From the NCBI RefSeq assembly GCF_009741375.1, contig NZ_WOWP01000045.1:1-64000 (forward strand): a DNA stretch of 64,000 nt. Reading direction: 5' to 3'. The position numbers and the translations under genes were made by a program. The notes beneath the pieces are model-generated. The model did not search any database, had not been told where the DNA came from, and worked only from the letters and a program-made list of their open reading frames with translations. This document shows positions 1,469-34,125 of the stretch, in pieces; within the stretch, counting starts at the first letter, position 1, and each line of letters begins with the position of its first letter. Source of the DNA: Flavobacterium rakeshii. Its GTDB lineage: Bacteria; Bacteroidota; Bacteroidia; Flavobacteriales; Flavobacteriaceae.

Positions 1469-1645
1469 CCTTTTTTGCCGTTTCGTAATGGAAAAGAATC
1501 AGAAGAGAATAAGCAGGATCGAAAAGAATATTATAGTTGTACCTCCACCACAACACTTTCATCCGCACGTTCATTTCAGTTTAAAAACTTGCTTTTGTAA
1601 GCTTAGATTATTAAAATTGCAGATAAATACTAACCAACCTTACCA

Positions 1646-32356: not shown

Positions 32357-34125
32357 ATGGAACAGTTTATAGTATCAGCCCGAAAATACCGCCCGCAAAC
32401 CTTTAAGGATGTTGTGGGACAGCAGGCTATTACCAATACACTGCTAAATGCTATAGATAACAATCACTTAGCTCAGGCCTTACTGTTTACAGGACCAAGG
32501 GGTGTAGGTAAAACCACCTGTGCCCGTATACTTGCCCGTAAAATTAACCAGGAAGGATATGATGATCCTAACGAAGATTTCGCTTTCAATGTTTTTGAGC
32601 TCGATGCGGCATCAAACAACTCGGTAGACGATATCCGTAATCTTATCGATCAGGTTAGGATACCACCACAAACAGGTAAGTATAAAGTATATATTATTGA
32701 CGAGGTTCACATGTTATCTCAGGCAGCATTTAACGCCTTCCTTAAAACACTGGAAGAACCGCCAAGACATGCCATTTTTATACTTGCAACTACAGAGAAG
32801 CATAAAATTATCCCAACGATACTTTCCCGTTGTCAGATATTCGATTTTAAACGAATTACTGTAAAAGACGCTAAAGAGCACCTTGCAGAAGTTGCCAAAA
32901 GCCAGGGAATTACATTTGAGGATGATGCGTTACACATTATAGCCCAAAAGGCTGATGGTGCTATGCGTGATGCACTCTCTATTTTTGACCGTGTGGTAAG
33001 TTACTGCGGTACTAACCTTACACGTCAGGCTGTTACCGAAAACCTAAACGTACTTGATTATGAGTACTACATAAAGGTGACTGACCTTATTCTGGAAAAT
33101 AAAATACCGGAGCTTTTATTAGCTTATAACGACATACTGGCAAAAGGATTTGACGGACATCACTTTGTTGCCGGATTAGCATCTCACTTCCGTGATTTAT
33201 TAGTATGTCAAAACCCTGCTACACTTGTTTTACTGGAAGCCGGAGAGGTTGCCCAACAAATGTATGGTGAGCAGGCTAAAAAGGCTTCACAGCACTTCCT
33301 TTTACAGGCTATTGACGTAGCTAACGATTGTGACCTTAAATATAAAACAAGCCAAAACCAAAGGCTATTGGTCGAATTATGCCTGATGCAGCTTGCCTCT
33401 ATCACTTTTGATGGAGAAAAAAAAAAGCTGACAAATTTATAATCCCTCCTCATTATTTTAAAGATTTAGCCAAGGGTAACTCCCCTATACAGAATACTGC
33501 ACCCGAAAGTCAACAGACAAATACTCCGGATACTGCCGCACAACCCGCACAGGAACAACCTAAAACAACAGGTGGTATATCTCCCCTTCCGGCAAAAGAA
33601 CTGGAAGTAGAAGCTCCTGTAGTTGTTAAAGCCCCACCAAAACCTGAACCTGATAACAGCGAAAAAGTATCGGCCTTATCCCTAAACAGTATCAGGCAAA
33701 AACGTGCACTGGCAGAAAGCCAGAAAGCAATGCAAAGGCATCATGATGAGCTTCCTACCGAAGCTTTTAGCGAAACTGATATGCGCCTGTTGTGGAATAA
33801 GTTTGCTCAACGCCTTAGCGATACCGGCCAGAAGATTATGGCTACTTATATGCAGATTAATGATCCAGAACTACAGGAGGACGGATTTACCATTAAACTG
33901 GAACTACCAAACGAAGGGTCTAAAGTTGATTTTGATAACAATAAAATAGAACTTTTAGGCTATTTAAGAGGGAAACTCCACAACCACGACATAGTTGTCG
34001 AAACACATGTAAATGAGACCGTAGAAAAGAAATATGCGTTTACTCCTGAAGACCGATATGAGAGGCTTAAAAATATAAATCCGGCTTTGGATTTATTACG
34101 CAAAACATTTGATCTTGATATTTAA
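32357..34125 (+). CDS. dnaX: DNA polymerase III gamma/tau subunit, split by a -1 frameshift
   Basis: The clamp-loader ATPase frame runs from ATG 32357 to a TAA at 33440-33442 (361 aa, gamma-like). It has Walker A GPRGVGKTT (46-54), DEVHMLS, the sensor LATTEKHKIIPTILSRCQ and the clamp-loader collar. The zinc-finger cysteines of E. coli DnaX are absent. At 33417-33426 is a run of ten A read GAA AAA AAA AAG, which contains the heptamer A AAA AAG in phase. A -1 slip gives KKKADKFIIPPHYFKDLAKG, a Pro/Gln-rich linker and a tau-like C-terminal domain to 34125, 589 aa in total. This could be programmed frameshifting or transcriptional slippage, as known for dnaX elsewhere, or a homopolymer error. Confidence 0.85.

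Follow-up and report, generated by a model that had tools for sequence, protein, structure and literature searches.

The window, a stretch of 64,000 nucleotides from Flavobacterium rakeshii, contains a dnaX gene that is divided over two reading frames (Table 1). The preliminary description had already reported this arrangement, and it is confirmed here. The 0 frame starts with ATG and ends with a TAA that lies 13 nt past a run of ten A's (A10), and the -1 frame continues from the end of the run for 232 open codons. The 0-frame codons across the run read GAA AAA AAA AAG, so that the heptamer A_AAA_AAG does stand in the phase used by E. coli dnaX, and since the tau end is in the -1 frame, a slip would indeed yield the long product, the reverse of E. 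coli. The -1 tail matched positions 394–613 of the gamma/tau model NF011531 (E 8.8e-25); this match covers a fragment and hence falls under the whole-protein cut-off of the model. No Pfam family matched the tail at E 0.001. The closest named record for the head is from Flavobacterium beibuense (97%), in a search that may omit the source genome itself.

Table 1. Features of the split dnaX gene (positions in the window)
Feature	Position	Strand	Evidence
dnaX 0-frame ORF, gamma-like product, 361 aa	32357..33442	+	TIGR02397 dnaX_nterm match, E 3.4e-116
RNA hairpin CUCUAUCA-CUUU-UGAUGGAG	33397..33416 (arms 33397-33404 and 33409-33416)	+	compensatory changes, synonymous-codon null, slid-partner control
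A10 slippage run (putative)	33417..33426	+	9–14 A in 205/205 unique Flavobacteriaceae junctions
Heptamer A_AAA_AAG, in phase; candidate slip site for the ribosome under the rival mechanism	33421..33427	+	sequence
TGA closing the third frame (9- or 12-A transcripts)	33429..33431	+	third-frame stop placement across the genus
TAA closing the 0 frame, hidden in the tau-frame Ile-Ile codons ATA ATC	33440..33442	+	0-frame stop placement
tau C-terminal extension, -1 frame, 232 aa + stop	33427..34125 (open 33427-34122, stop 34123-34125)	+	NF011531 match

Distribution of the split gene and its A run

The dnaX tail was matched in 193 of 199 Flavobacterium genomes. Among the genus matches listed, 142 of 150 have a frame of only 214–262 aa around the tail and thus a split gene, eight have a single ORF of 593–614 aa, and none has an internal stop in the tail. 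A search of 249 family genomes listed 148 rows from outside the genus; of these, 15 have a head frame of 360–377 aa (one of them, G236, at a contig edge) and 133 a frame of 564–688 aa. Split and single-ORF rows were counted by hand in both cases. Among the matches listed, tau is therefore in frame in most of the family and mostly not in Flavobacterium. Five MAG contigs (L058, L076, L089, L104 and L108) titled Sphingobacterium, Rhizobium, Chitinophaga (two) and Bdellovibrio encode a Flavobacterium-like dnaX, and their bins look misnamed.

These counts show a conserved split, so that recoding, as considered in the preliminary description, looks programmed, and they speak against its alternative of a missing base. 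Homopolymers are error-prone and the congener L016 does have A11 and one ORF, but it is very improbable that sequencing or assembly dropped one A from a gene that is truly one ORF, because the same split recurs in 142 of the 150 listed genus rows, single-contig genomes such as G130 and G191 included, and because both alternative frames are kept stopped. Relatives with an uninterrupted frame and no slip heptamer had been named as counter-evidence; single-frame relatives do exist, but those that were read keep the run. It is hardly credible either that dnaX is a pseudogene or that gamma alone is made. The 0 frame by itself encodes a gamma-like protein, but the tail is matched in nearly every genus genome and, among the matches listed, is free of stops inside, and the four other matches to the dnaX head in the source genome are all partial and at most 42% identical.

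For the comparison of junctions, loci from the genus tail search and from the head search were combined with 140 fetched regions. From the non-genus family 80 of the 148 listed rows were fetched, made up of the 40 highest-ranking rows, 14 of the 15 with a split gene and 26 further ones, and by this choice of rows split genes are over-represented in the other-genus set. Fourteen of the 37 regions from beyond the family were dropped, as the end of the head was unmatched. The resulting 236 loci gave 228 unique junctions: 116 from the genus (including the oddly titled MAG contigs with Flavobacterium-like dnaX), 89 from other Flavobacteriaceae and 23 from beyond the family. As the run we took the longest stretch of A's close to where the head ends.

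The preliminary description had proposed a comparison of run length in relatives. All 116 genus and all 89 other-genus junctions have at least nine A's (range 9–14, mostly 10). The genus has A10 in 111 junctions, A11 in four and A9 in one; the other genera have 10 A's in 78, 11 in five, nine in three, and 12, 13 and 14 once each, the two longest being those of L150 and L163, and run length thus drifts. Beyond the family 13 of 23 junctions have at least nine A's. Elsewhere in the genus loci no A run exceeds 7 in the dnaX head or 8 in the following 660 nt, the congeners' loci (566,122 bp) contain only 13 further A/T runs of at least 10, and GA10B occurs twice in the 3.9-Mb source genome. Given this rarity and the conservation of the junction in the genus, the A10 of dnaX is not due to chance. 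The other GA10B site (L257, about position 1501, minus strand) is situated, judged by eye, close to the beginning of a gene on the reverse strand, which we take to resemble a TonB-dependent receptor gene.

The run is kept while the frame of tau relative to the 0 frame changes. In the genus tau is in -1 in 106 junctions, in 0 in nine and in +1 in one (n=116); in the other genera, where split genes were over-picked, it is in 0 in 71, in -1 in 12 and in +1 in six (n=89). The single +1 row of the genus (L057, Flavobacterium sp. YO12) has A9 and differs from its tree neighbours, which may be a real change or an assembly error. A quick tree of 105 heads, built with the last 60 nt omitted, needs at least seven changes of tau frame, and well-supported branches force six for the -1 group.

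The hairpin directly 5' of the run

Directly before the run the RNA can form a hairpin whose last base touches the first A (Table 1). This feature was absent from the preliminary description and is new here, and its pairing is kept by evolution. Synonymous sites before the run are conserved in the genus: GCC makes up 97 of 102 Ala codons (25% background), ATC is found in 108 of 114 cases (19% background) and GGA in 111 of 115 (44%), which is likely because of the stem. All seven basal pairs form in 174 of 199 same-phase junctions where about 16 are expected (genus 110/116 against a null of 10.0; other genera in the same phase 64/83 against 5.5). Over these 199 rows 94% of cells are paired, compared with 31–57% when the partner is slid by 1–4 positions, and one stem pair occurs as A-U, G-C, C-G and U-A. 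For eight pairs in 108 distinct rows, the share of paired cells is 88.2% in place and 29.6–59.1% in the slides. Cells changed on both sides numbered 23 against 5.4 after shuffling and the covariation score was 0.190 against 0.135, with 0 of 500 shuffles as high, a test that is inflated by relatedness; the slide and codon controls are free of that fault. With the partner slid by -1, 16 cells and five pairs were changed on both sides (23 and five in place), but only 49.4% of cells were paired.

Folding energies agree with this. The 26 nt before the run average -8.36 in the genus against a codon null of -3.34 (107 of 116 in the lowest 5%) and -7.58 against -3.27 in the other genera (67 of 89 in the lowest 5%), and a stem ends at most 2 nt from the run in 115/116 and 82/89 junctions, respectively. 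Several loci, among them L112, L174, L176, L189 and L195, have lost the common stem and have a different one in its place. Some Flavobacteriaceae with the run (e.g., L095, L169 and L255) have no convincing adjacent hairpin. Outside the family it is not a general feature either: two of 15 regions have energies within the bottom 5% of the null computed for each.

RNAalifold called five helix pairs in the genus set and no helix in the other-genus or joint sets. With a cut-off of E 0.01, a covariance model of the hairpin plus A9 matched 204 of 249 family genomes, from 167 of 202 genera, in a sample of which a part had trained the model; the matches compared by eye (e.g., G251, G319 and G438) are located where dnaX ends. 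In the source genome dnaX is the only good match (E 1.4e-10, the next at E 4.83). A class-wide search with the model hit six of 149 genomes, of which four are Flavobacteriaceae and two are L266 and L267. L266 is a split dnaX from another family of the class, and at the match in L267 no dnaX-like ORF of at least 100 aa was seen. By eye, another 5-bp hairpin, CUUCC/GGAAG, stands immediately before the A run of L266 (about 1501–1544, minus strand), a hint that this layout recurs in a different sequence. No Rfam family matched at the gathering score, and we found no description of a 5' hairpin at dnaX slip sites in a literature search that covered mainly openly accessible papers.

Two further readings of the sequence around the run were rejected. 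An outer stem CAGCUU/AAGCUG, enclosing run and hairpin, is not general: in the other genera 17.2% of it is paired, as in shuffled sets, and in the genus 84.3% is paired against a shuffled mean of 82.0% (maximum 83.4%), an excess that relatedness could give. An SD-like role of the conserved GGAG arm was discarded as well, since the stem still pairs where this arm varies (GACGGAG, GGCGGAG, AATGGAG, GAGGGAG).

Stop codons in the non-tau frames

Both frames other than that of tau are closed soon after the run. Stops in both frames within 17 nt were found in 196 of 205 family junctions, where synonymous shuffling of the tau codons predicts about 20 (genus 114/116 against 11.5; other genera 82/89 against 8.7), and the same pattern occurs at 12–13% of codon boundaries elsewhere in genus genes. 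Beyond the family it is present in seven of 13 rows with a run of at least 8. In the genus rows where tau lies in -1 (n=106), the third frame is stopped within 17 nt in 105 (50.0 expected) and the 0 frame likewise in 105 (37.6 expected). The 0-frame TAA is hidden in an Ile-Ile motif of tau, the first Ile of which is encoded by ATA in 108 of 116 genus rows, compared with 18% of Ile codons generally. Twelve loci (L018–L020, L022, L024–L026, L062, L068, L074, L086 and L094) have a 0-frame stop straight after the run (AAG TAG), and in eight of these Flavobacterium loci the later ATA is ATC, as if released from stop duty.

A -1 ribosomal shift uses two frames only and needs no stop in the third. 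Third-frame stops would be understandable with mRNAs of varying length, as in Thermus, where dnaX mRNAs of several lengths and nearby stops in the frames other than that of tau are described (PMC1088944). Close stops in both non-tau frames and a run of at least nine A's are both found in Flavobacterium.

Proposed slippage: RNA polymerase or ribosome

From the observed anatomy, its conservation, the covarying pairs and the placement of stops we infer slippage, its transcriptional nature and its stimulation by the hairpin. We regard the site as probably a programmed slippage cassette, composed of an RNA hairpin, A10 and stops in both non-tau frames, at which the polymerase slips. While RNA polymerase copies A10, the all-A:T RNA-DNA hybrid (9–10 bp) would realign, so that some dnaX mRNAs gain or lose A's. 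An A10 mRNA would give gamma (361 aa) by ordinary translation, mRNAs with A9 or A12 a gamma-like product of 357–358 aa, and mRNAs with A8, A11 or A14 tau (588–590 aa). At the border of this hybrid, the hairpin would fold in the nascent RNA and modulate how much, or in which direction, the polymerase slips.

The sequence comparison favours such polymerase slippage over an E. coli-type ribosomal shift, because the tau frame flips while the run is kept, stops are kept in every frame except that of tau, the run is as long as the RNA-DNA hybrid of 9–10 bp (PMC5009743), and the structure sits 5', where nascent RNA leaves the polymerase, with none on the 3' side. Among orthologues, mixed shift direction has been taken to indicate transcriptional realignment, and a uniform direction ribosomal shifting (PMC3711429). 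Among the mechanisms that the preliminary description left side by side, polymerase slippage as in Thermus fits best, and the E. coli-type shift is disfavoured by the frame flips, the third-frame stops, the lack of 3' structure and the reportedly SD-blind ribosomes. Against polymerase slippage, tau here needs one A more or two fewer, whereas in the known hairpin-driven case slippage removes a single base; where relatives have tau in +1, one A fewer or two more are needed.

As an explanation, a -1 shift of the ribosome at A_AAA_AAG with the mRNA itself unchanged, which would resemble E. coli dnaX except that tau results, is in our view rather improbable. The heptamer is in phase here and in 110 of 116 genus rows (15 of 89 in other genera), and a G follows the run in 115 of 116. 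The only two tRNA-Lys genes found (among 39 tRNA matches, with one contig-edge match uncalled) both carry the anticodon UUU, the situation also known from the shift-prone site of E. coli. However, there is no 3' stem-loop in the source sequence (z -0.26 and 0.09) or over the 116 genus rows (mean z 0.17 and 0.04). The SD-like GGAG ends 4 nt before the heptamer and by eye nothing is found at 10 nt, the spacing of the SD-like stimulator in E. coli dnaX. Bacteroidia ribosomes are moreover reported not to recognise SD sequences (PMC9976891), and a hairpin directly upstream of the slip site reportedly weakens -1 shifting (PMC6321510). Tau in +1 in six other-genus rows and one genus row, and the stop in the third frame, also remain unexplained by a -1 shift. 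A review does treat the reversed dnaX arrangement as frameshifting, and names a Chlorobium as a candidate with stimulators like those of E. coli (PMC5009743). The ribosome may contribute as well, by shifting at the in-phase heptamer. A possible, if doubtful, combination that overlaps with polymerase slippage is that both act: an old, family-wide slippage by the polymerase, with ribosomal shifting added in Flavobacterium where a G follows A10. Run, hairpin and stops are common to the genus and the other genera, and the genus keeps the G where the other genera read most often have T, but the G may merely reflect Ala/Val codons in the tau frame.

A dnaX gene with two ORFs and A10 that needs recoding for tau is already known. 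Antonov et al. (2013) list 17 such genes in 12 genera, nine of the 17 with 10 A's, and suggest transcriptional realignment (PMC3711429); the reversed gamma/tau arrangement is also noted in a 2016 review (PMC5009743). The gene described here resembles these in having gamma in the 0 frame, tau in need of -1 at the DNA level and poly-A (A10) at the junction, and differs in the 5' hairpin, the third-frame stops and the mixed direction within dnaX, none of which is mentioned in the parts of that account that we consulted. The slippage in Thermus thermophilus dnaX (Larsen et al., 2000) likewise involves a long A run (A9), close non-tau stops and gamma plus tau from one gene, and in the available portions of the sources a 5' hairpin is unmentioned (PMC1088944; PMC5009743). 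In T. thermophilus, where mRNAs of mixed A length yield the two products at about 1:1, tau is however read in the 0 frame and gamma results from slippage, whereas in Flavobacterium slippage would give tau; tau in the 0 frame is not found in F. rakeshii and is found in the single-ORF relatives. With E. coli dnaX the gene shares the in-phase A_AAA_AAG and tRNA-Lys UUU as the only one found, and it differs in lacking the 3' stem-loop and an SD stimulator at about 10 nt and in the reversed roles of gamma and tau, as the shift in E. coli yields the short product. A stem-loop directly 5' of the slip motif, as found here, enables slippage in Roseiflexus IS630 (Penno et al., 2015, via PMC5009743). There the motif is U5C5, which loses one C, in an IS transposase gene; here it is A10 in a replication gene across a bacterial family. 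What is new is the hairpin touching the run.

We lean, by a little, towards a nascent-RNA hairpin that programs dnaX polymerase slippage across Flavobacteriaceae and sets the gamma:tau ratio. The frame of the gene would then be free to flip (0, -1, +1) with unchanged products, because slippage samples all three frames, while the hairpin, the run and two stops are kept. For annotators, a split dnaX in Flavobacteriaceae need not mean a pseudogene or an error. The compact cassette could serve to test the control of slippage by structure in nascent RNA, and it comes from a phylum with reportedly SD-blind ribosomes. Stem-loop-stimulated slippage has been described, in the source consulted, for one case, an insertion sequence (PMC5009743), and the hairpin, if it acts as proposed, would be a cellular and family-wide case. 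Tau is the clamp-loader subunit reported to contact both the DnaB helicase and the Pol III core (PMC11470591), and if the proposal is true, a replication gene of a large family would depend on polymerase slippage for its tau.
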